From Flavobacterium chilense (GTDB lineage: Bacteria > Bacteroidota > Bacteroidia > Flavobacteriales > Flavobacteriaceae), in assembly GCF_001602525.1 (NCBI RefSeq), contig NZ_LSYT01000002.1, positions 1-64,000 on the forward strand: a DNA stretch of 64,000 bases. Reading direction: 5' to 3'. Of this stretch, positions 84 to 15,846 are shown piece by piece. The translations under genes were made by a program, and so were the position numbers. Under the pieces are notes generated by a model. It was not told where the DNA came from, ran no database searches, and was given only the letters and a program-made list of their open reading frames with translations. Within the stretch, counting starts at the first letter, position 1; each line of letters starts with the position of its first letter.

Positions 84-85
84 TA

Positions 86-106: not shown

Positions 107-112
107 GCATTT

Positions 113-152: not shown

Positions 153-162
153 GTTGTTTTTG

Positions 163-249
163 CAGAGAGGAAGGGATTCGAACCCTCGATACAGTTACCC
201 ATATACTAGCTTTCCAGGCTAGCTCCTTCAACCACTCGGACACCTCTCT
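163..249 (-). tRNA. tRNA-Ser (anticodon GGA)
   Basis: On the minus strand the 87-nt sequence folds as a class II tRNA. The acceptor stem AGAGAGG pairs with CCTCTCT, the anticodon loop CTGGAAA carries GGA, there is a long variable arm, and the T arm has the GGGTTCGAATCCC core. The discriminator base is G, as expected for serine tRNAs. The 3' CCA is not encoded and must be added after transcription. It reads UCC and UCU codons. Confidence 0.95.
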
Positions 250-308
250 AAATTGGTCTGCAAAGAACACAAAAAAAATTGAGTTACAAAAGTAAAATCT
301 AATAATAC

Positions 309-1178: not shown

Positions 1179-1269
1179 ATCGATAACTTTAAATACTTAT
1201 TATCAGTAAAATTATTAATTTTTCTAATGAAATCATAATTCCGAACTTTGTAAAAAAATATCAGGCATC

Positions 1270-2511
1270 ATGTTTAAGGCATTAAAATCAAAAAACTTCA
1301 AGCTATTCTTTTATGGACAATCTGTTTCTGTAATTGGAACATGGCTTCAAAAAACAGCTGTAAGCTGGATGGTCTACAGCGTGACAGGTTCTGTTTTTTT
1401 ATTAGGACTGGCTACATTTTTAAGCATGATTCCTTCTTTATTTCTGGCACCTTTGGCCGGTAGTATCATTGGCCGATACGACAGACATAAAGCCATGATT
1501 TTATTACAGTCTCTGGCTATGTTTCAGGCAGGAGCTTTGGCTTTATTGATATATTTAAAAATTTACAATATCAACTTTATTCTGGCATTAAGTCTTTTTC
1601 AGGGAATCATAAATTCTTTTGATATGACTTGCCGACAAACCATGATGATTGATATTGTCGACAATAAAGAAGATTTGCCAAATGCAGTCGCACTAAACTC
1701 GACTTTAAACAATTTCGCCCGAATTGCCGGTCCGGCTCTGGCAGGAATTATTCTGCATCAATATGGTGAAGACATTTGTTTTATTGGAAACTTCTTAAGC
1801 TATATCCCGGTTTTAATTTCGTTATTGATGATGAAAATCACTCCGCATATTAAAGCTACAGATAAGCTTAAAATGTATGATGACTTTATTGAAGGACTGG
1901 ATTATGTGAGAAAAGAAACTGAAATGGCAAAAATGCTTCTGATGCTCATGTGCAGTAGTTTATTTGTTATTTCTTTCAATACTTTAATGCCTGTTTTTGC
2001 CAAAGATATTTTTAGCGGAAATGCCCAGACTTTCAGTTGGTTCGAAAGCGCGGCCGGAATTGGTTCTATTTTATCTGCCATTTATCTGGCTAATCTTAAA
2101 AAAGCAGATAATATGAGTAAAATAATGATCGCTGCCAGCTTATTATTAGGTTTTAGTATTATTATACTTGCTTACTCAAATAGCTTAACTGTAGCGCTAA
2201 TTTGTATGGCTTTGAGCGGTGTAGGCATGATGGCCCAAACCTCATCTATAAATATTTACATTCAGACACAAAGTACTGTGAATATGAGATCCAGAAGTAT
2301 TAGTTATTATTTAATGGCCTATCAGGGAATGATTCCTGTGGGAAGTTTAATTATTGGTTATGTTTCTCATATTATCGGAACAAGAAATACAGTAGCCATT
2401 CAGGGAATTATTTGTATTGTTTCTGTTATTGTATATGTGTATTACAAAAAATATAAATCTTCAGAAGAGCTGGAAACTTGTCCTGTTCCTTACGAAAATT
2501 CTAAATTTTAA
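1270..2511 (+). CDS. MFS transporter, EntS/MFS_3-like exporter
   Basis: This 413-residue inner-membrane protein has about eleven to twelve hydrophobic helices. Its N-terminus, with a GQSVSVIGTWLQ segment in the first helix, is typical of the MFS_3 group that includes the enterobactin exporter EntS and macrolide efflux proteins. The cytoplasmic loop after TM2 carries GRYDRHK, a version of the MFS motif A. The substrate is unknown. It is divergent from a LysR regulator. The gene ends 95 bp before the convergent asparaginase gene, with a hairpin between them. Efflux rather than uptake is inferred from family resemblance. Confidence 0.85.
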   Translation: MFKALKSKNFKLFFYGQSVSVIGTWLQKTAVSWMVYSVTGSVFLLGLATFLSMIPSLFLAPLAGSIIGRYDRHKAMILLQSLAMFQAGALALLIYLKIYNINFILALSLFQGIINSFDMTCRQTMMIDIVDNKEDLPNAVALNSTLNNFARIAGPALAGIILHQYGEDICFIGNFLSYIPVLISLLMMKITPHIKATDKLKMYDDFIEGLDYVRKETEMAKMLLMLMCSSLFVISFNTLMPVFAKDIFSGNAQTFSWFESAAGIGSILSAIYLANLKKADNMSKIMIAASLLLGFSIIILAYSNSLTVALICMALSGVGMMAQTSSINIYIQTQSTVNMRSRSISYYLMAYQGMIPVGSLIIGYVSHIIGTRNTVAIQGIICIVSVIVYVYYKKYKSSEELETCPVPYENSKF

Positions 2512-2533
2512 TAAATTCCAATTGTACACATAC

Positions 2534-2562
2534 TTGTCATTTTTCGTTCCCCGAAATGACAA
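2534..2562. terminator. hairpin between convergent genes
   Basis: The arms TTGTCATTT (2534-2542) and AAATGACAA (2554-2562) pair perfectly between the ends of the MFS gene and the asparaginase gene. There is no long T tract, so termination in either direction is likely but not certain. Confidence 0.5.
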
Positions 2563-2606
2563 ATCAACTTATTTAAATAAATTTATAACCATTTATAGGG
2601 TAAAAT

Positions 2607-3638
2607 TTAAAGAGAAATCTCTCCGCGTAAAGCCGTTTCAAAAACATCTTTAAATTCATTTTGAGGTATATCATGTCCAAGCAAATACATCAGTTTTGTA
2701 ATTGCTGCCTCTGTAGTAATATCTTTTCCTGAAATAACACCAAGCGATTTTAAAGCTGTACTGGTTTCATATTGTCCCATATTAACGCTTCCGCCTGAAC
2801 ATTGCGTTACATTTACAATGTGCATTCCGGATTTGATTGCTTTTTCAATTAAGTTTAAAAACCAATCTTCGGTTGGAGCATTTCCTGAACCGTAAGTTTC
2901 TAAAACGATCCCCCGTAAACCTGGAGTTGCCAAAATCGAAGCCAAAACAACTTCACTCATTCCCGGAAACATTTTTATAATCGCTACATGATTGTCTAAG
3001 TTTTTGTGAACGATTAAATCTGCATTTTTGTTTATTGGAAGAAATAAATGAGTATTTAACTTTAAATGCACGCCAGACTCTACCAATTCTGGATAATTTG
3101 GTGCTGTAAAAGCTCTAAAGTGTTCGGCATTTACTTTTGAAGTTCTGTTTCCGCGGTATAATTTATATTCAAAATACAAGCAAACTTCGGTAATTACAGG
3201 TTTTCCGTTTTCCTGCAATGAAGCGATTTGAATTGCTGTAATCAGGTTTTCTTTAGCATCGGTACGCAGATCTCCAATTGGCAATTGCGAACCCGTAAAC
3301 ACAACCGGTTTAGCTAAATTCTCGAGCATAAAACTCAATGCTGAAGCCGAATATGACATGGTATCTGAACCATGAAGTACTACAAATCCGTCATAAGAAG
3401 CATAATTTTCTTCGATGATTTCTGCAATTTTCGTCCACTCTGCCGGATTCATGTTCGATGAATCTATTGGATTTTCAAAAGAAACCGTTTCAATCTCACA
3501 ATCTAATTGTTTGATTTCGGGGATTTTTTGCAACAATTTTCCAAAGTTGAACGCTTTGAGCGCTCCGGTTTCAAAGTCTTTGCTCATACCGATGGTTCCT
3601 CCGGTATAAATCAAAAGTATTTTTGCTTTAGATGACAT
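2607..3638 (-). CDS. ansA: type I L-asparaginase
   Basis: This 343-residue cytoplasmic enzyme hydrolyses L-asparagine to aspartate and ammonia. Both threonine sites are present: the N-terminal TGGTIGMS (Thr12 region) and HGSDTM at residues 89-94, which holds the second Thr-Asp pair. There is no signal peptide, so it fits the cytoplasmic type I group rather than the periplasmic type II enzyme. The start codon overlaps the end of the upstream acyltransferase gene by 11 bp, suggesting translational coupling. It is the last gene of the leftward tatD-acyltransferase-ansA cluster. Confidence 0.93.
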   Translation of the reverse strand: MSSKAKILLIYTGGTIGMSKDFETGALKAFNFGKLLQKIPEIKQLDCEIETVSFENPIDSSNMNPAEWTKIAEIIEENYASYDGFVVLHGSDTMSYSASALSFMLENLAKPVVFTGSQLPIGDLRTDAKENLITAIQIASLQENGKPVITEVCLYFEYKLYRGNRTSKVNAEHFRAFTAPNYPELVESGVHLKLNTHLFLPINKNADLIVHKNLDNHVAIIKMFPGMSEVVLASILATPGLRGIVLETYGSGNAPTEDWFLNLIEKAIKSGMHIVNVTQCSGGSVNMGQYETSTALKSLGVISGKDITTEAAITKLMYLLGHDIPQNEFKDVFETALRGEISL

Positions 3639-4764
3639 CTTGGTATTTTAATTTATTGACAACCGGATTGGCATACATTGCCAAAAATCCTTGTCTTGTA
3701 ACAGGATTATCACTTCCGATACGCATTTCTAAACGACGCTCAAAAAGTGATTTTTCATTTTCTTTATACAAATCAGAGAATCTGTTTGTTTCGTTTAAAA
3801 TATCGTAAGCGATAAAATTTGTTGGCCATAATTGATAATTCGTCAAGATAGAATCGTCAATAACTTGTGCCAAAGCCTGAACCTGTTTGTTTACATTATC
3901 ATTCTCTGCTACAATCTGATCAATTTCTTTATCCAAAACATCGCCAACAGAAATATGTATTCTTTTTTTGGTTCCCATGATACCACTTATAATGGTCATG
4001 AAATCTTCATTTTTATCTTTAACGTAAACTTCATTATTGGCTTCTGCCATTAATTGGGGCATTTTTAAAACATCTGTAGGATCATATTCATAAGAAATCG
4101 AAACCGGAACGATTTTTAATTTCTTAAAATAATCCATTAGATTTTCTTCATCAGAACCCATTCCTATCATTTTCAAAACTCCCGGATTGGTTTCGTCATT
4201 TCCGTCTTTGGTTCTGCCTTCTCTTTGTGCAATCCAAACCGAACGATTTTCGCGAAGCAGTAATTGCCCTATGTATTCTGAAAGCAATTTGGAACTTTGC
4301 AGCATTTCACGAGGCGTTAACCCTCTTAAAACCAAAAAGTTTCTATTTAGTTTTGCCAAAGTTGCCAAAAAAGCTTTTTTAACCAGATTATCTCCAATTG
4401 CTGATGCTGTCATAACCAAACCATGTTCGAATAAACAAACATTCAGCAAAGTAGTATCTAATAAAATATCTCTGTGATTAGAGATAAATAAATAAGAAGT
4501 ATTTTTTTCGAGTTTCTCAAAACCTGAAGTAGTAAGTCCTTCAGAACTTTTCTCCAGAACCTTTTGTATGGTGTTATAAATAAAATTGCATTGAAAATCA
4601 CGAATTGAGTGTGTTTTCTTAAGTTGCTCTTTCCAAACCTCATCTTCTACTTCCGGAAAAGTAAAGTTCATCATCGTTTTCATCATCGGATGGTTGGCCA
4701 CATCATGAAGTGCTTCATTTATTTCAGTATCATAAAATGGTCGAATGGCATCAAATTTCTGCAT
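3628..4764 (-). CDS. PlsC/PlsB-like glycerolipid acyltransferase
   Basis: This 378-residue protein contains the acyltransferase block 1 segment ISNHRDILLD (His97, Asp103) and a later REGRTKDGND segment resembling the EGxRS/EGGRS phosphate-binding block. It probably transfers an acyl chain to a glycerol-phosphate or lysophospholipid. The active-site motif is spaced H-X5-D instead of the textbook H-X4-D. I believe this form recurs in Bacteroidota homologues, but I could not check. No strong membrane helix is seen. It sits between tatD (64-bp gap) and ansA (11-bp overlap), so it is probably co-transcribed. The exact acceptor is unknown. Confidence 0.8.
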   Translation of the reverse strand: MQKFDAIRPFYDTEINEALHDVANHPMMKTMMNFTFPEVEDEVWKEQLKKTHSIRDFQCNFIYNTIQKVLEKSSEGLTTSGFEKLEKNTSYLFISNHRDILLDTTLLNVCLFEHGLVMTASAIGDNLVKKAFLATLAKLNRNFLVLRGLTPREMLQSSKLLSEYIGQLLLRENRSVWIAQREGRTKDGNDETNPGVLKMIGMGSDEENLMDYFKKLKIVPVSISYEYDPTDVLKMPQLMAEANNEVYVKDKNEDFMTIISGIMGTKKRIHISVGDVLDKEIDQIVAENDNVNKQVQALAQVIDDSILTNYQLWPTNFIAYDILNETNRFSDLYKENEKSLFERRLEMRIGSDNPVTRQGFLAMYANPVVNKLKYQDVI

Positions 4765-4828
4765 TATTTATATCGGATTTAAGAAGGCAAATGAACAAAA
4801 AAAAAATTACATTAAAGTAATGATTGGG

Positions 4829-5608
4829 TTAAATCCCAAAAACGTCTTTTGAATTTTGAGTTGTAATTGTGGCAATTTCTTCTTCAGAAACATTATATAT
4901 ATCTGCCAATTTGCTGATAACATTTACCAAATAACTGCTTTCGTTTCTTTTTCCTCTGTACGGAATTGGCGCTAAATAAGGCGAATCTGTCTCCAATACT
5001 ATATGTTTTAAATCGATTTGATTTAGAAACTGATCAATTTTTCCGTTCTTGAAAGTTACAACACCACCAATTCCTAATTTCATTTTATATGAGATTGCCT
5101 GCTGAGCTTGTTCTAAAGTTCCGGAAAAGCAATGAAAAATCCCAAATAAATCTTCAGATTTTTCTTCTTCCAGAATTTCAAAGATTTCATCAAACGCTTC
5201 ACGACAATGAATTACAATGGGCAACTTGTATTGTTTTGCCAGTTGAATTTGTCTCTTAAAAGCGATTTGCTGCTCTTTTAAATGTGTTTTGTCCCAATAC
5301 AAATCAATCCCTATTTCACCAACAGCATAGAATTTTCGTTTTGACAATTCAGTTTCAACATGCGCTAATTCATCTAAGTAATTATCTTTCACATAAGTGG
5401 GATGCAAACCCATCATCAGGAATACATTATCCGGATAATTTTGTTCTAAATCGTACATAGACTGTGTTGCAGCAGCATCAATTGCAGGAATAAAAAAGCG
5501 TGTAATTCCGGCATCGATAGCTCTCTGAATCATTTCGTCGCGATCCTGATCAAACTCTTCAGAATACAAATGCGTGTGGGTATCGGTAATAATTGGTGTT
5601 GAATTCAA
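4829..5608 (-). CDS. TatD family metal-dependent hydrolase (TTG start)
   Basis: This 259-residue TIM-barrel hydrolase belongs to the TatD deoxyribonuclease family. Metal ligands are visible: DTHTH at residues 9-13, GEIGIDLY, HCREA, HCFSG and ETDSPYLAP near the end. The family acts on DNA ends and possibly D-tyrosyl-tRNA-related substrates. The only start that keeps the DTHTH motif is TTG at 5608. The first in-frame ATG lies after the HTH motif, and an in-frame stop lies a few dozen bases upstream of the TTG. It heads a leftward cluster with the acyltransferase and asparaginase. Confidence 0.9.
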   Translation of the reverse strand: MNSTPIITDTHTHLYSEEFDQDRDEMIQRAIDAGITRFFIPAIDAAATQSMYDLEQNYPDNVFLMMGLHPTYVKDNYLDELAHVETELSKRKFYAVGEIGIDLYWDKTHLKEQQIAFKRQIQLAKQYKLPIVIHCREAFDEIFEILEEEKSEDLFGIFHCFSGTLEQAQQAISYKMKLGIGGVVTFKNGKIDQFLNQIDLKHIVLETDSPYLAPIPYRGKRNESSYLVNVISKLADIYNVSEEEIATITTQNSKDVFGI

Positions 5609-5734
5609 TGGTATACTTTTAAAGTTGTCAAAATTACGACAATATTAAAAGAATAGCAATTGCTTGTTTGCTTATGGATTTTAAGGATTCAATTTCATAA
5701 AAGTACAGATTGATACAGATTTTCGCATTGTTAC

Positions 5735-5865
5735 CCTTTTGAGGAAAGAAGACTCAAGCAATAACGAATAAACAAAGTAAATCACACTCGTAACCCGACA
5801 AAGGTTGGCGATTCTCTTTGTGGAATTTCTAGTGTGATTCCTCTTTCCTCAGAATGACATACAAA
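5735..5865. repeat. dispersed flavobacterial stem-loop repeat
   Basis: This gap between the peptidase and tatD has nested inverted repeats. AATCACACT (5780-5788) pairs with AGTGTGATT (5831-5839), and inside it ACAAAG (5798-5803) pairs with CTTTGT (5816-5821). GAGGAAAGA/TCTTTCCTC-type segments flank the whole. The sequence style matches mobile-looking intergenic repeats I recall from other Flavobacterium genomes. No open reading frame fits here. Confidence 0.5.
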
Positions 5866-5876
5866 ACGTTAAAACC

Positions 5877-7517
5877 TTACTTTCCAGTTTCAATAAAGAC
5901 TAAAGCACGGTCTAAAACCTCATCTTTTCCTTCCTGAATTCCTTTTATGGTTGGTTTTACTTCTATATCTGGTACGATTCCAATTCTTTGTGTTTCTCTT
6001 CCGTCAGGATAATACACTCCTATTGCTGAATATATCGTATGAAATCCTTTAAAATCAAATTCAAATGCATTTCCATCTGCTCCTGCAGTTTGACTTCCTA
6101 TTATTGTGGTATTATTAGCCGTTTGAAAACTCATGGCAGTCCATTCAGACTGACTTATCGAGTCTTCATTAAGCAATACAATTACTTTTCCTTTATAATT
6201 ATCTTTATTTTCAAAACCACATTTTCTTTCTTCAGTCCAAACATATCTGCCAGGATAATTTGGGTATGGCATTGTATAAATGCAAAAACTCTTTTCCTGA
6301 GAATTTAAAAAATCTGAAATCTCTTTCCATGTGTTTTGTGGATAATTTCGCATATCAAAAACAATTGCTTTTGTCGATTTTAAGGCTTGAATCATATCCG
6401 GAATATGTTTCTCTTTTATTATCCCCATATCTACATAGCCTATATTATTATCCAGAAGTTTAAATCTCTCCTTCTTTTTTGTGGCTCCTTTTTTAAATTC
6501 ATTTCTATGAGAATCATGGTAACTAAACCAAATCATTGACTTTGTTTCGTACTTCCCATTTTTTAGAAATTCTACTTCAACATTTTGAGAGTCATTTCTT
6601 AAAATTGGTGTAACTAATTTATCGAAATACGCAACTTCATTTGAAGCACAAATTAAATCCCGATTCTCTAAAGCTAACTCTTTTATCGTTTTGCCATTTA
6701 TTTTAGTAATTACAGTTCCTATTTTTATATTATCAGCTTCAGCAAGACTATCACCCAAAATATTGGTAACAACCAATTTTTCATCAATTATTTTACCTGT
6801 TGCCGGAAAATAGTATTTTAGACTTTTCAAAGATTTGTATAAAAAAAACTCAACATGACTGTCATTGAGATTAGTAACCATTTTTCTCATTGCAATATAA
6901 AAATCACTTTCATTTTTAGCATCACTAACAAGTGGTAACGTTTGTTCTAAACTCAGATCCCATTTTTGATCCATTATATATTTATATGGAAAATAATATT
7001 CAATCACATTCCAATAGACAAACAGCATTAAAATTCTGGAACCTTTACTATTATAATCAAGATCAAAATAGTTTTTAAGACTTTTAAAACTATCAAAATC
7101 AGGCCCAAATTCTACATTACTTTGAAATCTATTTTCTTCAATAAATTTGAGCTTCTTCGAAAGTCTCCTGGAAAACACCTTATTGTTAAACCAGCTTAAA
7201 TCGAAGTTTTTATCAAAGAACTTAACATCTTTGGGTGTAGGAATTGGTGCAATTTCTTTTATCGGACCAAGTTCGTCAATCCAGTTTTCGAGAATCAATG
7301 AAAATTCTTCTTTGGTTTGTGCCTTTTCTATTTTAGGAAGTTTTTCTAAAAGCTGGTTGTCCCAATTTACTTCTCCATTGGCTACTTTTGGGTGATAGTA
7401 TTTTAAGAATCCCCATACTTTGCAGGTTGCAGCAAGTTTTTCGGTTTCAGTAATTTTGGAAGCGCTAAAAATAATCTGTGAAAATACAAGAAGAAAAAAT
7501 AAAGCAATTTTTTTCAT
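5877..7517 (-). CDS. secreted S41 family serine peptidase
   Basis: This 546-residue protein begins with a signal peptide (MKKIALFFLLVFSQIIFSAS). A conserved N-terminal region follows (KYYHPKVANGEVNWD). A PDZ-like segment lies near residues 250-300 (GTVITKINGKTIKE). The C-terminal S41 tail-specific protease domain has the catalytic serine in NEDSISQSEW and GSQTAGADG behind it. It likely acts in the periplasm or outer membrane. The gene appears monocistronic, flanked by a dispersed repeat downstream and the anti-sigma operon's terminator upstream. The substrate is unknown. Confidence 0.88.
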   Translation of the reverse strand: MKKIALFFLLVFSQIIFSASKITETEKLAATCKVWGFLKYYHPKVANGEVNWDNQLLEKLPKIEKAQTKEEFSLILENWIDELGPIKEIAPIPTPKDVKFFDKNFDLSWFNNKVFSRRLSKKLKFIEENRFQSNVEFGPDFDSFKSLKNYFDLDYNSKGSRILMLFVYWNVIEYYFPYKYIMDQKWDLSLEQTLPLVSDAKNESDFYIAMRKMVTNLNDSHVEFFLYKSLKSLKYYFPATGKIIDEKLVVTNILGDSLAEADNIKIGTVITKINGKTIKELALENRDLICASNEVAYFDKLVTPILRNDSQNVEVEFLKNGKYETKSMIWFSYHDSHRNEFKKGATKKKERFKLLDNNIGYVDMGIIKEKHIPDMIQALKSTKAIVFDMRNYPQNTWKEISDFLNSQEKSFCIYTMPYPNYPGRYVWTEERKCGFENKDNYKGKVIVLLNEDSISQSEWTAMSFQTANNTTIIGSQTAGADGNAFEFDFKGFHTIYSAIGVYYPDGRETQRIGIVPDIEVKPTIKGIQEGKDEVLDRALVFIETGK

Positions 7518-7688: not shown

Positions 7689-8411
7689 CTAATCTAACTG
7701 ATCTAAAAGGTCCTGAACCTGATCATATCCTTCATAATCTTCAGAAATCGTCTGCAGGATTTCTTTACATCCATCATAATCTTTTTGTTTCAACTTAGAT
7801 AATGCTAAATACCAGACTGCTTTTTCTTTGTAGGCTGAAGTTCCTGATTTCAGTTCGTTAAAAACAGTTTCCGCTTTTTTATAATGACTTTCTTCTAATA
7901 AGGAAACACCATAAAAAAATTGAATTTCTGCTGTCTTTTGCTTTTGCAGTACTGTTTCAAAAAACGGAATTGCCTCATTATATCTTTTGTTGTTATATGC
8001 AGTTTCAGCTCCTTTTAATGCCTCATCAACAGTACCTCTTTCGGTAAAAGAAGCATGTTCCGGATCATTATAATCTGCAAAAACCGGATTTAGATTATAA
8101 TTAAAAAAGAACAATCCAAAAAGAACCACAACCGAAGCCGCAGCAGCAAAATACCATGGTTTTAATCCAATTACTTTTGGTTTCTTATTAAAATGCTGGT
8201 TAGATATGTTGGTTAGATTTTCTTTGAATGCAGCTCTTTCCTGTTCCAGTCCAAACTTATGTTCTACCTGAGATTGTACATTTTTGAACGTCTCAAATTC
8301 CGAGGCAAATTCCGGATTTTCAGACAGCTGTTTTTCAAAATCATTTTTGGCATCAATCGTTAATTCGTCCTGAAGATATTGATCAAATAATATGTAGCGT
8401 TCTTCACTCAT
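7689..8411 (-). CDS. TPR membrane protein, probable anti-sigma factor
   Basis: This 240-residue protein has three parts: a charged N-terminal region (1-100) that resembles the sigma-binding end of Bacteroidota anti-sigma proteins, one membrane helix (about 107-127, WYFAAAASVVVLFGLFFF), and a C-terminal region of TPR-like helix pairs (about 130-240). The expected topology is N-terminus in the cytoplasm and TPR domain in the periplasm. It starts 2 bp after the stop of the ECF sigma gene, so the two are co-translated. I infer that it holds the sigma factor at the membrane until a periplasmic signal arrives. No zinc-binding HxxxCxxC motif is visible. Confidence 0.78.
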   Translation of the reverse strand: MSEERYILFDQYLQDELTIDAKNDFEKQLSENPEFASEFETFKNVQSQVEHKFGLEQERAAFKENLTNISNQHFNKKPKVIGLKPWYFAAAASVVVLFGLFFFNYNLNPVFADYNDPEHASFTERGTVDEALKGAETAYNNKRYNEAIPFFETVLQKQKTAEIQFFYGVSLLEESHYKKAETVFNELKSGTSAYKEKAVWYLALSKLKQKDYDGCKEILQTISEDYEGYDQVQDLLDQLD

Positions 8412-8413
8412 GA

Positions 8414-8998
8414 CTAATTATTTTTTAGAGATTTAAAGTTTTTTGCTTCCTGAATCCACTGTGTTAACTGACCTACACATAACGATTTCTTTTTACGCAC
8501 ATATCCGTAAGTAACGTTTAGTTTTTCGGCAACCTCTTCCATCGATTTAATTTCAAAACTCAGCTTCAGGAGTTCTTTGCATTTGTCTCCTAATTTCTGA
8601 AACATCGTATCAAATAGTTGTTGCTTTTCATCAAATTCTTCGGTTTGTCCAATTAACTGTAGAGCAGATTCATTCATAGATACTGCATCTTCTATAATTG
8701 TTACCCCTTTGTTGGATGTTTTTTTCAGCTCGTTAAGCCATTTTCTTTTACACAATAAGAAAAAGTAGGCATCAAACGGACAAGTTAACTGCAACGTATT
8801 GGCTCTCGCCTGATTAAAAAGCAAAATCAAAACTTCCTGAACCACATCCTGCGCCTGATCCCTGTCGCCGGAATTGTTCATAATAAACAGTACGACTTTT
8901 GGAACAAACTTTTTATATATAGACTGAATAATTGCCGAGTCGTTTGAGGCAAGTCCGTCAATATATATTTGGTCAGGATGTAATTTGGTTTTATCCAT
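8414..8998 (-). CDS. ECF-type RNA polymerase sigma factor
   Basis: This 194-residue protein has a region 2 helix set (residues about 20-90, with GDRDQAQDVVQEVLILLF as region 2.2 and FDAYFFLLCKRKWLNEL as 2.3-2.4) and a region 4 helix-turn-helix (about 130-180, SMEEVAEKLNVTYGYVRKKKSL). Length and layout fit the ECF class. It shares an operon with a membrane TPR protein that probably restrains it. Divergent genes start 130 bp away and carry a repeated promoter-like motif (9059-9085, 9451-9477, 9519-9545) that I assign to this sigma factor by proximity. Its own promoter does not show that motif. Confidence 0.9.
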   Translation of the reverse strand: MDKTKLHPDQIYIDGLASNDSAIIQSIYKKFVPKVVLFIMNNSGDRDQAQDVVQEVLILLFNQARANTLQLTCPFDAYFFLLCKRKWLNELKKTSNKGVTIIEDAVSMNESALQLIGQTEEFDEKQQLFDTMFQKLGDKCKELLKLSFEIKSMEEVAEKLNVTYGYVRKKKSLCVGQLTQWIQEAKNFKSLKNN

Positions 8999-9058
8999 AA
9001 ATAAACTTTTGATTAGCTAAAGTTAAAAAAGAATCTCAAATAAATTTCAAATAAAGGG

Positions 9059-9085
9059 GTAACAATTCATTCTACAGGTTGATAT
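9059..9085 (+). promoter_or_regulatory. putative ECF promoter, copy A
   Basis: GTAACAAT, then 12 bases, then TTGATAT. The same words with the same spacing recur at 9451 and 9519 and at no other place I found in the window. The GTAAC block would be the -35 and the TTGATAT block the -10 of an ECF promoter. The expected start site near 9092 gives a leader of about 36 nt for the gene at 9128. Confidence 0.65.
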
Positions 9086-9127
9086 AAAGGAAACAAAAGT
9101 CTTTTAAACATTTAAAATTAAGAGAAA

Positions 9128-9427
9128 ATGGATACTTATCAATTTACAAACGAAAAGACATTAAATCAATTTCACGAAATGATTTCTGCCAAAAAAAGAA
9201 ATGGTTTTGTAATTGTAGAGCAAAATGAAAAATTGCCATATGTTGTTTTATCCAAAGAGAAAAAAGCAATCAAACACACTTTACACCTCTTTCTTACCTG
9301 CCTCACATTAGGTCTTTGGTCTGTTGTCTGGATCTATTTAATTATTACGCTTTCGCAGAAAAAAAGCATCCTTGTCGCTGTTGACGAAGATGGAAATCTG
9401 TTTGAAGACAAGTGTCTTTCGGCATAA
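9128..9427 (+). CDS. small single-pass membrane protein, unknown function
   Basis: The protein has 99 residues. A soluble N-terminal half (about 1-52) containing the phrase NGFVIVEQNEKLPYVVLSKEKK is followed by one long hydrophobic helix (about 55-78, LHLFLTCLTLGLWSVVWIYLIITL) and a short acidic tail. I do not recognise the family. It is the first gene divergent from the ECF sigma gene and has a copy of the putative sigma promoter about 43 bp before its start, so it is probably a direct target. It could be a membrane sensor or a sigma-pathway modulator; nothing in the sequence decides this. Confidence 0.75.
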   Translation: MDTYQFTNEKTLNQFHEMISAKKRNGFVIVEQNEKLPYVVLSKEKKAIKHTLHLFLTCLTLGLWSVVWIYLIITLSQKKSILVAVDEDGNLFEDKCLSA

Positions 9428-9450
9428 AATAAAAAAACGAAAAAACAGAG

Positions 9451-9477
9451 GTAACAATTTTATGCTCCTGTTGATAT
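9451..9477 (+). promoter_or_regulatory. putative ECF promoter, copy B
   Basis: GTAACAAT-N12-TTGATAT, identical in both blocks and spacing to copies A and C. It lies 142 bp upstream of the lipoprotein start and would give a start site near 9484. Confidence 0.6.
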
Positions 9478-9518
9478 ACCATTATAAACACAGATTGAAA
9501 TAAATTTTAAAAACAAGG

Positions 9519-9545
9519 GTAACAATATCAAACCCAAATTGATAT
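9519..9545 (+). promoter_or_regulatory. putative ECF promoter, copy C
   Basis: The third GTAACAAT-N12-TTGATAT copy, preceded by AAAACAAGG, which resembles the bases before copy B. It lies 74 bp before the lipoprotein start, so the lipoprotein gene has two tandem copies. Confidence 0.65.
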
Positions 9546-9619
9546 TAAAATATAATTAAAAACCAAAATCTGAAAACCGCCTGAAAAAAATCAGGACAGA
9601 TTTATAAAACCTGGAAATT

Positions 9620-10606
9620 ATGAACACAAATTTTAAAAAAATCGGACTTCTATTTTTATTAGTTATCAGTTTTGTAAGTTGCGACAACAGCGACGGCGAT
9701 AACAACAATCTTGTACTTCCTCCAACCGGAGCAGCTTTTAAAAGCATTAGCGAAAAAGGAGTATCGGCAAATACACAAAAATTCACCATCACTGCCGGAA
9801 ATGGTACTAAAACCATAACATCTGCCAAAGGAGTAAAATTAACCATCAATGGCGATTGTTTGACCAAAAACGGAGTTCCTGTAACCGGACAAGTTGATAT
9901 TGAATACATTGAACTTTTCGACAAAGGAACCATGTTAATTACCAACAAACCAACAATGGGAATCACAGCTGACGGAAAGAAAAACTTACTCATTTCAGGA
10001 GGAGAATTTTTTATCAAAGCCACACAGGGCGGTGTTGAACTTCAAACTTCCTGCTATATGAATCTAGTTGTTCCAACTGCTTTAACTAATGGTTTAGACA
10101 ATGCTATGACTTTATGGAATGGGGTTATCGATGATAAAGGAGAATTAGCCTGGAAAGAGAATAAACCTGATGCTACAGGAAATGGCGGAAAAGGAGGCGT
10201 ACAAGGAGAAGGAGCTAATTATTATGTAACTTTTGGAAACTTTGGATGGACAAATGTTGACCGTTTTTACAGCGATCCAAGACCTAAAACAACAATTTTG
10301 GCAAAAGCTCCAGACGGTTATGACAATAATAATAGTGCTATTTACTTATCTTATGATGGTGAAGGAACAAATGCTCTTGCGAAATTAGATACTTATACTC
10401 CTGCCGGATTGTTTAGTGAGCACTACGGACAAATTCCAATTGGACTAAAATGTCACGTTATTTTTGCTACAGAATCTAATGGTCAATGGCGTTATGCAAT
10501 CAAAGCGGTAACTGTTGCTGCCAACGATGTTTATACCTTTACTCTTGCTGAAACAATAATAGGTACCGAAGCTCAGCTTGTAGCCGCAATCAATGCTATT
10601 CAGTAA
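9620..10606 (+). CDS. lipoprotein of unknown function
   Basis: This 328-residue protein has a lipoprotein signal (MNTNFKKIGLLFLLVISFVSC) with Cys21 as the lipidation site and a DNSDGDNNN tail after it, which would favour export to the outer membrane or surface. Residues about 45-150 look like a beta-sandwich resembling ZU5-type domains (TKTITSAKGVKLTING... GQVDIEYIELFDKG), but that is tentative. The gene has two tandem copies of the putative ECF promoter. It is followed by a strong terminator, so the next gene may need its own promoter or read-through. Confidence 0.75.
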   Translation: MNTNFKKIGLLFLLVISFVSCDNSDGDNNNLVLPPTGAAFKSISEKGVSANTQKFTITAGNGTKTITSAKGVKLTINGDCLTKNGVPVTGQVDIEYIELFDKGTMLITNKPTMGITADGKKNLLISGGEFFIKATQGGVELQTSCYMNLVVPTALTNGLDNAMTLWNGVIDDKGELAWKENKPDATGNGGKGGVQGEGANYYVTFGNFGWTNVDRFYSDPRPKTTILAKAPDGYDNNNSAIYLSYDGEGTNALAKLDTYTPAGLFSEHYGQIPIGLKCHVIFATESNGQWRYAIKAVTVAANDVYTFTLAETIIGTEAQLVAAINAIQ

Positions 10607-10628
10607 CTTATGAATACTTTTTTAAGAA

Positions 10629-10658
10629 AAAGTGGTGATTTGCTCATCACTTTTTTTT
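10629..10658 (+). terminator. terminator after lipoprotein gene
   Basis: The stem AAGTGGTGA/TCATCACTT with a short loop is followed by eight T. It ends the lipoprotein transcript, or lowers expression of the downstream PKD gene. Confidence 0.75.
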
Positions 10659-10717
10659 ACATTTAATCCTGTTTTAAAATTGATCCTTAAGATTTTAGAA
10701 CCCAAAACTATCTAGTT

Positions 10718-12670
10718 ATGAAACCACAACTGTCTATTTTCTTTATTCTATTCTCTATTTTCTCAATGGGACAAACCAAAGTAAAAGACACCATAACCCG
10801 AAGAGCCAATATTGTTTTTATTCAAAACGGAAATACTGTTACTTACAAACCTGAAACACCTCTTTTAATACCAATTGCAGGAGCACCAAAACCCAGTTAT
10901 TCGTATTTGTGGGAATTGGGCGATGGACATTACAGTAAAGAAGCTGAACCTAAACATGTCTATAAAAACAAAGGCACTTATACCACAAGACTTGCCGTAA
11001 CCAACAATTACGACAACGGGAAACCTCCGGCAACACGACCTAAAAAAGTAGCTGTAAATGACATTATTGATACCAATTATAAAGATATTGCTTCGATTGC
11101 AGATCAAAACGGATTTGCCATTTTAAAAAACTGTGATCCTGTTCCGGATCAGGAAATGGTAGTTGTAGTAGGTTATCAAAATCTGGAAAATTATGTAACA
11201 AGCGGAAAGCTGTATTTATTCTATAATGAAAAACAATTTAAAAACAATAATTTCGAATTAGTCGATTACAGAACGTATGCTAACGAACGCGAAGTAAAAG
11301 AAAATACTATTGCTTCTGTTAACGATCTTGACGATTCTAATCGTTATCTGGCCAGTGCCGAAAACACTTTCAAACTTAAAAAATATAGAAATACCACTAC
11401 CGAAGAAGATCTGGATGCTTCGTTATCAGATGCTCACAAAACTTATCACAATGTTTCGGTTCTGGAATTTGACGATGCCAATCCCGGCGAAACCCACAAT
11501 GTTTTTTATACGTTTAAAACCACTCCGGAAATGATTAAAGATACCAGTGCAACAGTTACCATGCGCGGCATTTTTGTTCCTAACCGAAGTTATAAAAACC
11601 ATAAAATAAAAAACCTCGAGATGGAAATTGTAACCTCTCATGATCCCAATAAAATGGGTTCTAACGGAAGTTTTATGAATTACAGACTAGTGCGTTTTAA
11701 AAGAGTCAATTTCAAAACCCGTTTCCAAAACAACGGCGAAGGTCCGGCCAGAATGATCAGACTTGAAACAGATATTCCGGATATGTTTGACAAAAAAACA
11801 TTTCAGGTCGAAGATATGTATCCAAAATGTCCTATTTGTCCAAAAGGCGAAGAACCAACCGTAAGTTGCCTGGATACTATTATTAAAAAAAATCAAATTT
11901 TCTTTACCTTCAAAAACATCTATTTACCCGGAAGTGAGCAAAAAAATGTAAAGGAAAAAGACAGTACAAAAGGATTTGTAAAATACTCCATGAAATTTGC
12001 AGAAGACTTTCATAAAGTAAAAACCAAAAGCCGAACCGCCATTATCTTCGACAAAAATGAACCTATAATTACGAATTATGCCACTACCCGATTTTTACCC
12101 GGAATCTCGATTGGGGCAAAAGCAGGTTATAATGTATATCCTGATCTCGAAAAGTCAACAAGTTATTTTGTGGGAGCGACCATTTCACCTTTTAAATCTT
12201 ATCGTTTTTACTGGCAGGCAGAATGGTTAAATGCCATAAATAAATATGAAAGTGGTGCAACGGTAATCGATCAGACTGTTTTAGGCGCAAATGGTGTAAA
12301 ACAATTTCAGCGAACCACAACCACCACAGAAAACAAAAATGTAAACTGGGAAGTTCCGGTTCTTATTCGGTATAATATTAACAATTATATTGGAGTTGGT
12401 GCTGGTGTACAAGCGAATTTTGATGTTTCATCAGAACAAAACCAAACCAGAAAAATTGAAACTTTTGAAGGTGGAACGGATCAGTTTTTAATCGACACCA
12501 AAACAGAATCAAGTTCAGTCAAAAACTCATTTGCCAATTTAAAAACAGGACTTTTATTTGATCTTACATTAGGTTTCGCAAGAATAGGTCCGAGTTTGGG
12601 CGCACGATATGTCATGAACTTTGAGCAAAATTTCAATTACTTTCAGTTTTATGGAATCTGGAAGTTTTAA
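10718..12670 (+). CDS. PKD-domain protein with C-terminal beta-barrel
   Basis: This 650-residue exported protein starts with a signal peptide (MKPQLSIFFILFSIFSMGQ). A PKD fold follows at about 45-110, with the hallmark WELGDGHYS and YKNKGTYTTRLAVTN segments. The middle region (about 110-460) has no domain I recognise and contains a CPICPKGEEP cysteine pair. The last 190 residues alternate polar and aromatic residues and end in YFQFYGIWKF, which looks like an outer-membrane barrel with a terminal aromatic. It may anchor a periplasmic or surface complex in the outer membrane. It lies between the lipoprotein and the CHAT protein. Confidence 0.75.
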   Translation: MKPQLSIFFILFSIFSMGQTKVKDTITRRANIVFIQNGNTVTYKPETPLLIPIAGAPKPSYSYLWELGDGHYSKEAEPKHVYKNKGTYTTRLAVTNNYDNGKPPATRPKKVAVNDIIDTNYKDIASIADQNGFAILKNCDPVPDQEMVVVVGYQNLENYVTSGKLYLFYNEKQFKNNNFELVDYRTYANEREVKENTIASVNDLDDSNRYLASAENTFKLKKYRNTTTEEDLDASLSDAHKTYHNVSVLEFDDANPGETHNVFYTFKTTPEMIKDTSATVTMRGIFVPNRSYKNHKIKNLEMEIVTSHDPNKMGSNGSFMNYRLVRFKRVNFKTRFQNNGEGPARMIRLETDIPDMFDKKTFQVEDMYPKCPICPKGEEPTVSCLDTIIKKNQIFFTFKNIYLPGSEQKNVKEKDSTKGFVKYSMKFAEDFHKVKTKSRTAIIFDKNEPIITNYATTRFLPGISIGAKAGYNVYPDLEKSTSYFVGATISPFKSYRFYWQAEWLNAINKYESGATVIDQTVLGANGVKQFQRTTTTTENKNVNWEVPVLIRYNINNYIGVGAGVQANFDVSSEQNQTRKIETFEGGTDQFLIDTKTESSSVKNSFANLKTGLLFDLTLGFARIGPSLGARYVMNFEQNFNYFQFYGIWKF

Positions 12671-12780
12671 TGTTATTGCACAGAGATGCACGAAGATTCG
12701 CAGAGAATTTGCCACGAATTATTATAAAAATTTAAAAATCAAATTCGTGAATTCTTGGCGAAAAAACTTTAAAGCTATGC
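12671..12780. repeat. intergenic stem-loop repeat (CACGAATT/AATTCGTG)
   Basis: Between the PKD and CHAT genes there is a phrase of the CACAGAGATGCACGAAGATT type, followed by CCACGAATT and its inverted partner AATTCGTG about 25 bases later. This is the kind of small flavobacterial intergenic repeat that folds into an mRNA hairpin. I see no promoter motif of the GTAACAAT type here. Confidence 0.45.
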
Positions 12781-12793
12781 GCAGCAAATTAAT

Positions 12794-15457
12794 ATGAACT
12801 TATATAACTTATATGGTTTGATTTTTCTTTTTTTTAGTCTGAATCTGTCAGCACAGCATCAGGAAGATAAAATATACCATACAATTGATGTTTTTGTTGC
12901 ACATCCTTCGGTGAAAGCCATAGAAAACTTAAAGAATACAGAAGCTGATTTCTGGAAAAATCCAGGACCAAAAACCAAAGACGAATTACTGGCGATTGTA
13001 GTTTTAAATTGCAATAAAGCGTATTATGAAAACCAATTCGGGCAAACCGAAAAAGCAATTTCAAGTTATGAAAAAGCATGGCAAATTTATCAGAAATACA
13101 AACTGAACAGCTATGACATCATCGAATATTGTCTGAAACCTTTAGGAAATTTATATACGATTTTAGGCGATTATGACAGTGCAGAAAATACGATAAAACA
13201 ATATTTTTTTATTGTAAATACTTCTAAAAATTATCCTGATGCACAAAGACAAAAATTTGCTGCGATTTTAAATTTATCGAATGTTTATCAAAGTTCCGGA
13301 AAAACGGCTCTCGCTATTGAATTATTAGAAAGTACCTTAAAAACAGAACCATTATCAAACTCTCAGAAAGGAATTTTATGGAATAATCTGGGAAATAGTT
13401 ATTGGCTAGGCTCAAAACAACTTGTGTTCATTAAAAACTCGCCAAACAATGCCGAAAAGGCTTTTGAATCCTCACTAAAATACCTCAAAAACGAAAAAGG
13501 ACAATCAGAAACTTTATCCAATTCTTATCGTAATCTGGCTTCGATGAACAGACAATGGCAACGATTTGAGATTGCTGATTCTTATATGCAAAAGGCTGAA
13601 GAATTATTTTCAGAAACAACAAATCATCAACCCAGAAAACGGGCAAAATTATATTATGAAAAAGCTTTGTTACTTTTTGATGAACAAAAATATGATGAAA
13701 GCGCAAAACAGATTCAGCTTATTTTTAAAATCCTGATTCCGAATTACAGTTCAAAAAATATTCTTCCGAATCAAAATCAATTGTACGCCGAAACAATTTT
13801 GATGGATGTTCTGGATTTACAGGCAGAAATCTTCTCTATACAAAATCAATCTAAAAAAGCAATTGAAACTTTTGTACTTTCTTTTCATATCGAAGACTTA
13901 CTGATGAATGTTCTGGTTTATGAAAACTCAAAAATCATTACACAAATCAGAGCCCGAAATCGTACTGAGAAATGTATTTCGATTTATGATGATTTATTTA
14001 AAAAGGAAAACAAAACTCAATATCTTGAAGAAGCTTTTCAATTATCTGAAAGAACGAAATCAGGAATTTTAAAAGGGTACCGATCGAATATTAAAAATGC
14101 TTCCGCAGAAGAAAAACAGCTTTTGCAGGAACTTCAAAATTTAAATAATGCCATTTTAAAAGAACAGCAAAAAGGAGATCGGGCTGATATTTCTAACATT
14201 AATTCGGCAATAAAAAAACAAAATGAACTGATGCTTTCCCTCAAGAAAATTCAAACCAAAAGTTCCAATTATATTCCTGAAAATTGTGATATAAAAGCAC
14301 TTTTATCAAAACTGGAAAAAGATAAAGCAGGAATGGTTTACTATTTTATGGGTTCTGAGAATCTGTATTATTTCATTGTAGAAAATAAAAAAATTAATCT
14401 AAATCACATTAATATTACGGACACTGCAATTCCAAAAATTGTACAATTTATAGATTATTTCAATAATGTAAACAACATAACAAATGATATTTCCGGATAT
14501 AATCATTGCGGAAAAAGAGCTTATAATATTCTGAAATTACCTCAAAAAACAATCTACAATAACCTTATCATTGTTCCGGATGGTATTTTGAATTTTCTTC
14601 CTTTTGAAGCTTTGATCACACAGGAATCATCAACAACTAATTTTGCTAAAATGCATTATTTACTAAATGATTTCAAGATTGCTTATAATAATTCGGCTAG
14701 TAATTATCTGAATTCAAAACCAATTTCAGAATCAGAAAAAACGGTTTTAGGTGTTTTTCCGGTTTTCGAAGGCACCTTTTTTGAATTGAGTTATTCGAAG
14801 AAAGAATTACAATCTATCAAAAGTAATTTTAAAGGGAAATATTTAGAAAATTCTGAAGCGAGTTTTTCTAACTTTAAAAATAACGCAAACCAATATTCCA
14901 TTTTACATTTAAGTACACATGCTTCTTCGGGCGATATTGAGACACCGGCAAGTATTAAATTTTACGACCAGGAGGTTTTGTATTCTGAATTATACAACCT
15001 CAACATTAATCCTGATTTGGTTGTTTTAAGTGCCTGCGAAACCGGAATTGGAAAACTCTACAAAGCCGAAGGCGCGATGAGTATTGCAAGAGGTTTTCAG
15101 TTTGCCGGAGCACAGAATTTATTGTTTTCTTTATGGAAGGTAAATGATTTTACAACATCTGTTTTTATGGCTGATTTTTATAAAAACATTAAAAATGATG
15201 TTCCGTATTTTGAAGCTAATACGAATGCCAAGATTGCTTTTTTGAATGATAAATCAATTTCTAATGCGAAGAAATCTCCTTATTACTGGAGTTCTTTTGT
15301 GTATTACGGATCGATTTCATCTGAACAAGAATCAGGAAATTATATCTATTATGTGATTAGTTTATTGACTCTAATTGGCTTATTTTTGATATTCAATCAC
15401 TATCGAAAATGGAAAATCTTCACGAGGTTCTCAAAAAAGAGAATTATAAAAAAATAA
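12794..15457 (+). CDS. TPR-CHAT protein, caspase-like protease
   Basis: The 887-residue protein begins with a signal peptide (MNLYNLYGLIFLFFSLNLSAQ). TPR helix pairs run from about 50 to 420, then a charged coiled-coil (about 430-490). The CHAT domain (about 580-840) shows both catalytic residues: His709 in HLSTHASS and Cys748 in VVLSACETGIG. A single membrane helix (about 850-870) and a basic tail follow. With a cleaved signal peptide and a C-terminal anchor, the CHAT domain should face the periplasm. CHAT enzymes are clan CD cysteine peptidases related to caspases and separase. The substrate is unknown; the anti-sigma TPR domain is one guess. The last 49 bp overlap the aspartic protease gene. 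Confidence 0.85.
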   Translation: MNLYNLYGLIFLFFSLNLSAQHQEDKIYHTIDVFVAHPSVKAIENLKNTEADFWKNPGPKTKDELLAIVVLNCNKAYYENQFGQTEKAISSYEKAWQIYQKYKLNSYDIIEYCLKPLGNLYTILGDYDSAENTIKQYFFIVNTSKNYPDAQRQKFAAILNLSNVYQSSGKTALAIELLESTLKTEPLSNSQKGILWNNLGNSYWLGSKQLVFIKNSPNNAEKAFESSLKYLKNEKGQSETLSNSYRNLASMNRQWQRFEIADSYMQKAEELFSETTNHQPRKRAKLYYEKALLLFDEQKYDESAKQIQLIFKILIPNYSSKNILPNQNQLYAETILMDVLDLQAEIFSIQNQSKKAIETFVLSFHIEDLLMNVLVYENSKIITQIRARNRTEKCISIYDDLFKKENKTQYLEEAFQLSERTKSGILKGYRSNIKNASAEEKQLLQELQNLNNAILKEQQKGDRADISNINSAIKKQNELMLSLKKIQTKSSNYIPENCDIKALLSKLEKDKAGMVYYFMGSENLYYFIVENKKINLNHINITDTAIPKIVQFIDYFNNVNNITNDISGYNHCGKRAYNILKLPQKTIYNNLIIVPDGILNFLPFEALITQESSTTNFAKMHYLLNDFKIAYNNSASNYLNSKPISESEKTVLGVFPVFEGTFFELSYSKKELQSIKSNFKGKYLENSEASFSNFKNNANQYSILHLSTHASSGDIETPASIKFYDQEVLYSELYNLNINPDLVVLSACETGIGKLYKAEGAMSIARGFQFAGAQNLLFSLWKVNDFTTSVFMADFYKNIKNDVPYFEANTNAKIAFLNDKSISNAKKSPYYWSSFVYYGSISSEQESGNYIYYVISLLTLIGLFLIFNHYRKWKIFTRFSKKRIIKK

Positions 15458-15846
15458 AATTCAAGGTTACCAAAACCCAGCATCTTTTAATAAAAGCGAA
15501 AATTAACGGTGTTTCCGGTAATTTCATTTTAGACACGGGCGCTTCAAACACCTGTATAGGTTTTGAAAGTATTGAGCGTTTTGAAATGGCAGCAAAAAAA
15601 TCGAAGACAAAAGCATCAGGAGCTGGCGGAACGGGAATGAAAACCCAGATTTCATCTCAAAATAAACTACAATTAGGAAGCTGGAAAAACAAGGACTTCA
15701 GCATCGTTATTTTTGATCTCTCGCATGTTAACGAGGCTTTAGAATCGCACAAAGCAAAACCGGTTCACGGTATTATTGGCGCTGATGTTTTGTTAGAAGG
15801 AAAAGCAATTATTGATTATTTTAATCATTATGTATATCTGAAATAA
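15409..15846 (+). CDS. retropepsin-like aspartic protease
   Basis: This 145-residue protein is a single-lobe clan AA protease. The catalytic DTGAS motif (Asp42) follows FIL, and HGIIGADVLL near residues 124-133 is the hydrophobic-Gly flap/psi-loop partner. It must dimerise to be active. No signal peptide is seen. Its start lies inside the last 49 bp of the CHAT gene in another frame. No later methionine precedes the active site, so the overlap is real and the two are translationally coupled. A terminator follows. The coupling suggests that both proteases act in one pathway. Confidence 0.87.
   Translation: MENLHEVLKKENYKKIKFKVTKTQHLLIKAKINGVSGNFILDTGASNTCIGFESIERFEMAAKKSKTKASGAGGTGMKTQISSQNKLQLGSWKNKDFSIVIFDLSHVNEALESHKAKPVHGIIGADVLLEGKAIIDYFNHYVYLK

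Follow-up and report, generated by a model that had tools for sequence, protein, structure and literature searches.

Which protease, if either, frees a membrane-held sigma factor when two unrelated protease folds are encoded beside it? The question is raised by a seven-gene locus at positions 7689-15846 of a 64,000-nucleotide stretch of Flavobacterium chilense DNA (contig NZ_LSYT01000002.1, positions 1 to 64,000; hereafter the window), in which genes for an extracytoplasmic function (ECF) sigma factor and a tetratricopeptide repeat (TPR) anti-sigma factor adjoin, on the opposite strand, genes for a small membrane protein, a lipoprotein, a PKD-domain protein, a caspase-like TPR-CHAT protease and a retropepsin-like aspartic protease. 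The first-pass annotation had suggested that proteolysis frees the sigma factor or executes its output, and an open reading frame (ORF) check recovered all seven genes with exactly the positions and strands it had assigned. Here we argue that the CHAT protein is probably a site-1 protease that cuts the neighbouring anti-sigma factor between Arg125 and Gly126, freeing the ECF sigma factor as part of a conserved envelope-signalling module. The earlier proposal is thus strengthened for the CHAT protease, through conservation of the module, a promoter motif and covariation between protease pocket and substrate, but not for the aspartic protease. The features that bear most directly on this reading are the following (window coordinates):

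7689-8411, minus strand: TPR anti-sigma factor, with a predicted topology of cytosolic N-terminus, one transmembrane (TM) helix (residues ~80-103) and periplasmic TPR domain (ORF, hydropathy)
8034-8039, minus strand: codons of anti-sigma Arg125-Gly126, the predicted scissile bond P1-P1' (covariation, alignment)
8414-8998, minus strand: ECF sigma factor (TIGR02937 above cut-off)
12794-15457, plus strand: membrane-anchored TPR-CHAT protease (profile, catalytic dyad, hydropathy, AlphaFold2 (AF2) model)
14804-14806, plus strand: CHAT Glu671, predicted S1 residue in alpha1 (covariation)
14918-14920, plus strand: CHAT catalytic His709 (alignment)
15029-15031, plus strand: CHAT Ser746 (Cys748 minus 2), predicted S1 residue in L4 (covariation)
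15035-15037, plus strand: CHAT catalytic Cys748 (alignment)
15146-15148, plus strand: CHAT Asp785, predicted S1 residue in L5 (covariation)
15338-15394, plus strand: CHAT C-terminal TM helix, residues 849-867 (hydropathy)

The CHAT protein matched its family profile (PF12770) at 156.5 bits against a cut-off of 24, and the catalytic residues His709 and Cys748, read as intact in the first-pass annotation, proved invariant in 97/97 aligned CHAT sequences. The sigma factor passed the sigma-70 ECF profile TIGR02937 (56.4 bits; cut-off 42.9), remained below the cut-off of the Bacteroidetes subfamily TIGR02985 (61.8 against 126.4 bits) and passed none of the Pfam sigma domains in the profile search. 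For the anti-sigma factor, whose gene lies directly 3' of the sigma gene in the examined loci, only weak NCBIfam anti-sigma matches far below cut-off were obtained (residues 11-105); TPR_19 and PKD_4 also matched among the locus proteins. Hydropathy indicates a single TM helix each in the anti-sigma factor (~80-103), a 99-residue protein encoded nearby and the CHAT C-terminus, and neither a signal peptide nor a TM helix was seen in the sigma factor or the retropepsin. Since the C-terminal TM helix of the CHAT protein (849-867) is followed by a basic tail, and an N-terminal signal peptide (MNLYNLYGLIFLFFSLNLSAQ) can be read by eye (a 19-residue hydropathy window gave no call), the CHAT domain is predicted to be periplasmic. 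On sequence grounds, the periplasmic side of the inner membrane should therefore hold both this domain and the TPR half of the anti-sigma factor. A sequence search of the PDB with the CHAT protein alone returned no match, a CHAT profile listed TPR and designed repeat proteins, and an anti-sigma profile gave zero matches.

The association of CHAT proteases with sigma/anti-sigma pairs extends beyond the gene set of the window (hereafter the cassette). Of 149 Flavobacteriaceae genomes (mostly one per genus), 68 carried a CHAT domain (PF12770), and, in the regions fetched outside the cassette, 61 of 85 CHAT ORFs had an ECF sigma factor within 5 kb. Chance would yield roughly one fifth, assuming 50 sigma-70 homologues per 3.5 Mb (at most 22-23 were scored per genome, with loose candidate lists of up to 123). 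All 61 sigma-linked CHATs, distributed over 60 loci because L209 carries two, were accompanied by a cassette-type anti-sigma factor (profile E <1e-3) directly 3' of the sigma gene, 59 of these with one TM helix. The CHATs themselves possessed a C-terminal TM helix in 57 cases and an N-terminal hydrophobic stretch in 41, and were arranged convergently with the sigma gene (26), on the same strand with sigma first (21), divergently (13) or otherwise (1). Partial ORFs are counted among the 85, as are two fragments of a single broken CHAT (L232), whereas L233-L236 (long CHAT proteins) and L237, missed by the profile, fall outside them. In the reverse survey, 64 of 70 anti-sigma places (E up to 1e-10) had a CHAT within 10 kb, and three of the remaining six lie near contig ends (G058, G079:C582, G015:C287). 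A phylum-wide draw of 148 genomes, from which 40 further regions were hand-picked among the listed CHAT places, added 41 CHAT ORFs, of which 18 had a sigma factor within 5 kb and 16 an anti-sigma factor next to them. These further modules were found in Flavobacteriaceae and in families f4, f5 and f8 of the same class; in the latter three, 9 of 16 fetched loci had a sigma factor within 5 kb. Also observed were a second, small CHAT match in the genome of the window itself (C1:678141; 5.92-Mb assembly searched) and two cassette-type anti-sigma genes, L238 (G003:C21) and L253 (G122:C108), in apparently decaying modules.

Alignment of 84 anti-sigma factors showed the segment from TM helix to TPR domain to be loose except at one conserved spot, whose sequence is specific to each class. 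With the predicted bond marked by a hyphen, it reads ..R-G/S in the cassette (FTER-G in the window), YPNvvhPITR-G/S in the convergent class, DLPSlvtR-G/S in most of the divergent class and PDPGLPTtM-S/G in most of the same-strand class. The conserved residue just outside the membrane is mostly Arg, and Met in one clade; among the 24 aligned cassette anti-sigma factors the predicted P1 is Arg and the predicted P1' is small (Gly, Ser or Ala) without exception. An orphan anti-sigma gene in G132, which has no sigma gene and whose genome gave no CHAT match, has lost the Met-Ser motif. If the conserved residue serves as P1 for the partner protease, a matching change in the pocket of that protease is to be expected.

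Such a change is seen across 84 CHAT/anti-sigma pairs (62 Arg, 19 Met, two Lys and one Gln). We scanned window CHAT positions, skipping columns gapped in more than one fifth of Arg rows and re-reading two rows by eye because of a MAFFT shift (conv_L197, R-D; same_L230, M-S). In exactly three columns, CHATs with Arg partners share no residue with those of non-Arg partners: 671 (Glu in 62/62 Arg pairs, otherwise Leu/Val/Ile or Asp/Val/Lys), 746 (Ser/Asn in Arg pairs, otherwise Thr or Asp) and 785 (Asp in 62/62 Arg pairs, Glu in 22/22 others). Residue 671 opens the helix that follows the first strand, 746 lies two residues before Cys748, a position shared by MALT1 Asp462 and caspase-7 Gln184, and 785 comes after the strand following the catalytic Cys and Trp781, the latter invariant in 84/84. 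The three columns thus fall in alpha1, L4 and L5, the three S1-specificity regions of clan CD. According to the partial text of PMC4357240, S1 specificity in this clan is set solely by alpha1/L1, L4 and L5, with an aromatic residue conserved on L5, and the residues concerned are Asp365 (alpha1), Asp462 (L4) and Glu500 (L5) in MALT1, Arg87, Gln184 and Arg233 in caspase-7, and the acidic Asp163 (alpha1) in RgpB.

Clade identity by itself yields further columns, as 12 separate the Met clade alone from the Arg pairs in the same alignment. As a control, the Lys/Gln trio was replaced by 14 other trios, mostly tree clades (domain alignment only), of which 13 gave no separating column and one gave a single column. 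The CHAT tree calls for two separate switches away from Arg, one leading to the Met clade (support 100/100) and one to a Lys/Gln clade (97/87) adjoining divergent-class Arg rows. Because the predicted pocket changes in step with one anti-sigma residue, the CHAT protease likely cuts the anti-sigma factor there. Further pairs, which played no part in finding the three columns, were also inspected. Among CHATs first recorded without a sigma factor and paired later, two pairs with Arg and one with Met agree, and one of three Lys pairs shows Gln671-Asp746-Glu785, the Lys/Gln pocket (for the Met pair and for one Lys pair, the partners lie on different contigs and were matched by sharing a genome). 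In the phylum-wide draw, 12 Arg anti-sigma factors were paired with 13 CHATs carrying Asp785 (13/13), Ser746 (13/13) and Glu671 (12/13), and Glu785 was present in both non-Arg pairs, one Lys (Met671-Asp746-Glu785) and one Met (Ala671-Ser746-Glu785); the anti-sigma factor of L291 was not readable with confidence.

Taken together, these findings point to a pathway in which the membrane-anchored TPR-CHAT protease, predicted to face the periplasm, would cut the TPR anti-sigma factor at Arg125-Gly126 just outside the inner membrane; by analogy with the RseA/RseP paradigm, intramembrane and cytosolic steps would be expected to follow and release the sigma factor. The freed sigma factor may then transcribe the genes for the small protein, lipoprotein, PKD protein, CHAT and retropepsin, and the CHAT protease, being transcribed by the sigma factor it frees, would provide positive feedback. 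One candidate signal, read by the TPR domains, would be the status of the lipoprotein or the PKD protein, and the retropepsin might serve as an accessory, possibly trimming cytosolic products. The remaining features of the cassette are:

9058-9085, plus strand: predicted sigma-dependent promoter 1, GGTAACAAT-N12-TTGATAT, 42 nt before the ATG at 9128 (motif)
9128-9427, plus strand: 99-residue one-TM protein, undetected in distant cassettes (ORF, hydropathy)
9450-9477, plus strand: predicted sigma-dependent promoter 2 (motif)
9518-9545, plus strand: predicted sigma-dependent promoter 3, 74 nt before the ATG at 9620 (motif)
9620-10606, plus strand: lipoprotein, lipobox read by eye, no family match, AF2 model beta-rich
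10718-12670, plus strand: PKD-DUF7619-DUF7849 protein (family profiles), signal peptide read by eye
15409-15846, plus strand: retropepsin-like aspartic protease (D42TGAS), no signal peptide seen (profile, alignment, hydropathy)

Gene order in the cassette is highly conserved. From 80 loci fetched using the CHAT protein as query, the 71 in which all six core genes were called share the order anti-sigma, sigma, lipoprotein, PKD, CHAT, retropepsin, the first two on the minus and the other four on the plus strand, without exception; the other nine comprise seven truncated at the end of a contig or locus, L076, where the lipoprotein gave no match, and L072, considered below. The complete locus is present, for example, in a strain of F. 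johnsoniae (L021). On long contigs of other genera, the anti-sigma, sigma, lipoprotein relative, PKD and CHAT genes are kept in 16/16 cassettes (sigma identity 53-62%), and the 99-residue protein was detected in 0/16. The homologues, including the sigma/TPR pair and the PKD protein, thus stay neighbours elsewhere, in line with what the first-pass annotation had asked of them. The lipoprotein gave zero matches in Pfam, NCBIfam and PHROG; its beta-rich AF2 model (pLDDT 73) found only weak Foldseek relatives, the best being a glycosyltransferase (E 7.8e-4, TM-score 0.18), besides an ankyrin ZU5 tandem (TM-score 0.03). A tail-specific-type S41 peptidase is encoded behind the anti-sigma gene (window 5877-7517) and in many Flavobacterium loci, with no match in others. 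We also considered an anti-phage system and rejected it; PADLOC returned no match (E up to 1) for five of the seven proteins; the 99-residue protein had one match (E 0.017), and the retropepsin matched PDC-M08B models (best E 2.7e-9), themselves small and aspartic-protease-like. A plasmid search found two remote sigma factors only.

The retropepsin is the obvious candidate for a second protease. It matched Asp_protease_2 (PF13650) at 54 bits against a cut-off of 24.3, with the D-T-G motif present; its DTGAS motif, noted at first pass, is kept in 93/93 aligned retropepsins, and its best named homologues, as those of the sigma factor, are Flavobacterium proteins. Its gene overlaps or directly follows that of the CHAT protease (in the window the ORFs overlap by 49 nt), and a retropepsin-like protease, SpoIIGA, reportedly activates a sigma factor in Bacillus. 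Since it lacks a signal peptide or TM helix, the retropepsin is predicted to be cytosolic, and could act in sequence, removing the anti-sigma remnant after the CHAT protease has cut outside. This scheme would extend, rather than exclude, cleavage by the CHAT protease, and we regard it as unlikely: two other-genus cassettes (L136, L139) keep sigma, anti-sigma and CHAT without a retropepsin, and at the 60 non-cassette CHAT/sigma loci tblastn (1e-5) found no match to the retropepsin. The part in sigma release given to the aspartic protease in the first-pass annotation is thus unsupported.

The divergent intergenic region of the window contains three copies of GGTAACAAT-N12-TTGATAT (9058, 9450 and 9518), all directed toward the rightward genes. 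The motif was absent from 100 shuffles of the window, and these are its only exact sites in the whole genome, where one or two mismatches added 12 (reversed control, 5). Among the 80 fetched loci, scanned with a 12-nt spacer only, the motif lies between sigma and PKD in 74/74 loci holding both genes (up to two mismatches; 73 with at most one, 64 exact). These loci hold 190 such sites (124 exact, 45 with one mismatch, 21 with two), every one pointing toward the rightward genes, against seven sites, all with two mismatches, in the remaining 1.5 Mb. With spacers of 11-13 nt and up to two mismatches, the motif was found at 19/19 loci of sigma orthologues (at least 50% identity), other genera and the window's own included, and at 0/6 loci of sigma paralogues (28-34% identity). 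From this distribution we infer that the motif is an ECF-type promoter bound by this sigma factor. The available part of the main text of a transcription start site study in F. psychrophilum (PMC9723704) contains neither GTAAC nor TTGATAT.

Across the 149 family genomes, exact GGTAACAAW-N12-TTGATAT occurs at 34 sites (reversed control, 2), 24 of them inside the cassette, and 7 of the 10 outside belong to the 19 cassette genomes. Six of the 10 are located 26-43 nt upstream of an ATG, mostly of genes that by eye are of lipoprotein or outer-membrane type, one being a relative of the cassette lipoprotein. This suggests a small regulon extending beyond the cassette. The distal sites before such genes are at L147, L148, L151, L152, L154 and L155, that of L151 also lying inside a long opposite open frame. 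Separately, GGTAACAAT lies within the sigma ORF, in coding orientation (window 8696-8705, minus strand; L102, L105, L106, L109, L110, L113), with a partial -10 element in other genera, and may represent either a coding coincidence or an internal anti-sigma promoter. Distant Flavobacterium cassettes without the 99-residue gene carry 22-codon ORFs of the MKKYIKKIRSYFTKRIWKIITR type, by eye cationic amphipathic microproteins, each preceded by its own motif copy and in some loci in tandem ~156 bp apart (L057:5993-6061; L073:3700-3768, 3857-3925; L076:5178-5246, 5335-5403; L077:3612-3680; L080 near 5980). Extra genes with their own motif copies were also seen inside cassettes (L076:5634-7505, L077:3763-5640, and 5' of the lipoprotein in L081 and L082), by eye encoding an OmpA-like-tailed protein and small lipoprotein-like products. 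In the same-strand CHAT class a different two-box motif, TGATGACA-N13-TCGATG (up to two mismatches), points toward sigma in 7 of 20 loci (L146, L209, L211, L212, L221, L226, L228) and occurs elsewhere in these loci too; a de novo promoter search of the convergent and divergent CHAT classes found no clear -10 box.

That the cassette CHAT gene lies within an operon behind the motif, and that other motif-bearing genes resemble those of lipoproteins and outer-membrane proteins, would also be expected were the CHAT protease merely an output of the regulon, processing envelope proteins (the lipoprotein or PKD protein, for instance) while another protease makes the site-1 cut. However, the CHAT gene keeps its sigma/anti-sigma partners at the 60 loci where tblastn likewise found neither the cassette lipoprotein nor the PKD protein, and the pocket of the protease covaries with the anti-sigma factor, so that we consider this explanation decidedly improbable.

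Several observations weigh against a CHAT site-1 protease. The cut site is a prediction from covariation, and that covariation is backed by just two independent switches, its main statistical limit. Two Lys pairs (L157/L250, L210/L251) have an Arg-type pocket, and Lys thus follows no single rule; one Arg pair has Ser671 (L266) and one Met pair Ser746 instead of Thr (L267), and residues in the further draw were read by eye alongside the pockets, not blind. In the AF2 model of the CHAT protein, confidence is low near 660-671, 747-761 and 777-786, which leaves the pocket geometry unseen. At the level of gene neighbourhoods, 24 of the 85 CHAT ORFs had no sigma factor within 5 kb in the first survey (three have one farther off), and in other classes of the phylum only 1 of 15 CHAT loci (L291) did. 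The anti-sigma factor of G003 keeps Arg-Gly in a genome without a CHAT match, next to a sigma ORF of only 81 residues, and that of G122:C108, itself degenerate, does so with no CHAT on the stretch. At L072 (metagenome-assembled genome contig, 1-6544), a cassette-type CHAT and retropepsin are preceded by 3.5 kb of unrelated genes, with an acyl-CoA-dehydrogenase-like gene in the PKD position and neither PKD nor lipoprotein matched before CHAT, reflecting either a true rearrangement or a misassembly.

Covariation demonstrates coupling, not catalysis, and the juxtamembrane motif might instead be a docking or structural element to which the CHAT protein binds without cutting, as an allosteric co-repressor; for Csx30, the substrate of a related CHAT protease, no alanine change abolished cutting (PMC10028731, partial text). 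Against docking alone, the three coupled columns lie at S1-specificity regions beside an invariant His/Cys dyad, and the P1' residue is small in every cassette row, which makes this alternative very unlikely in our judgement. A chance or hitch-hiking cluster can be dismissed: retention of the TatD and acyltransferase genes on the left flank means that part of the synteny is plain inheritance, and CHAT-retropepsin stands apart from the rest at L072, but the S41 gene (left) and RND gene (right) vary while the cassette persists, order is conserved into other genera, and CHAT recurs with sigma/anti-sigma in four arrangements.

Cleavage of the anti-sigma factor by the CHAT protease, the reading we prefer, may be set beside known systems. 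The first-pass statement that no characterised system has this set of genes stands for the set, within the openly licensed literature searched, where a CHAT domain with ECF and anti-sigma factors was not found outside Craspase (PMC10028731) and CHAT domain plus Flavobacterium yields only a Bacteroides type VI secretion study; it does not stand for the logic, which has precedents in Craspase and DdvA. In Craspase (type III-E CRISPR), the TPR-CHAT protease Csx29, RNA-activated through Cas7-11, cuts Csx30, an inhibitor of CASP-sigma, at 427-429; M427 deletion blocks cutting, and three sigma motifs lie within the locus (PMC10028731, partial text). The window shares with it a TPR-CHAT protease, a predicted sigma inhibitor and three predicted sigma motifs in the locus, and the AF2 model of its CHAT protein matches Csx29 chains 7y9x, 8d9h and 8eex in Foldseek. 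Csx29 is cytosolic, whereas the window CHAT is predicted to be membrane-anchored and periplasmic, its presumed inhibitor target is a TM TPR anti-sigma factor, and its P1 appears coded, unlike that of Csx30. With its C-terminal TM helix, and with no Cas family match among the seven locus proteins (CRISPR arrays were not searched), the window locus falls outside Craspase proper.

The best Foldseek match of the CHAT model is DdvA of Myxococcus xanthus (PDB 8rw5 and 8rot by title; E 1.6e-7, TM-score 0.16, with the CHAT part of low confidence), VIA-align rows reaching the TPR part. DdvA is reportedly a single fused polypeptide with a periplasmic TPR-CHAT domain and an incomplete active site, for which caspase-like autoproteolysis in trans is said to have been proposed. 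It acts, in the DdvA/DdvS system, as the transmembrane anti-sigma factor of an ECF sigma factor (PMC4374960, PMC12288465; partial texts). In the window, protease and anti-sigma factor are separate genes rather than one polypeptide, the CHAT dyad is intact and a P1/S1 code can be discerned. In the RseA pathway the site-1 cut is made by a serine protease with a PDZ domain, whereas the window candidate is a caspase-fold cysteine protease. The likeness to RseA/DegS/RseP lies in release of an ECF sigma factor through a cut in a membrane anti-sigma factor (as outlined in part of PMC10028731). Acidic S1 residues further recall the Arg-specific clan CD proteases MALT1, RgpB and separase, and separase chains match the CHAT model in Foldseek; architecture and substrate differ, and one CHAT clade switches to Met.

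It is possible, though we hold it tentatively and with some doubt, that one class of Bacteroidota relies on an entire family of site-1 proteases with a caspase fold, every member paired with a TPR anti-sigma factor of its own through a readable P1/S1 code (Glu671-Ser746-Asp785 for Arg; hydrophobic-x-Glu for Met; x-Asp-Glu for Lys/Gln) that would insulate parallel sigma channels, with Craspase and DdvA as soluble-CRISPR and fused offshoots of an ancestral envelope module, and the window retropepsin completing sigma release. To our knowledge, few bacterial CHAT proteases have either a substrate or a bond assigned; those of the modules described here gain a predicted substrate and a predicted bond, together with a specificity code open to single-residue changes. 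The findings suggest that ECF sigma activation involves a new class of site-1 protease, and they supply a non-CRISPR setting from which the sigma switch of Craspase could derive.

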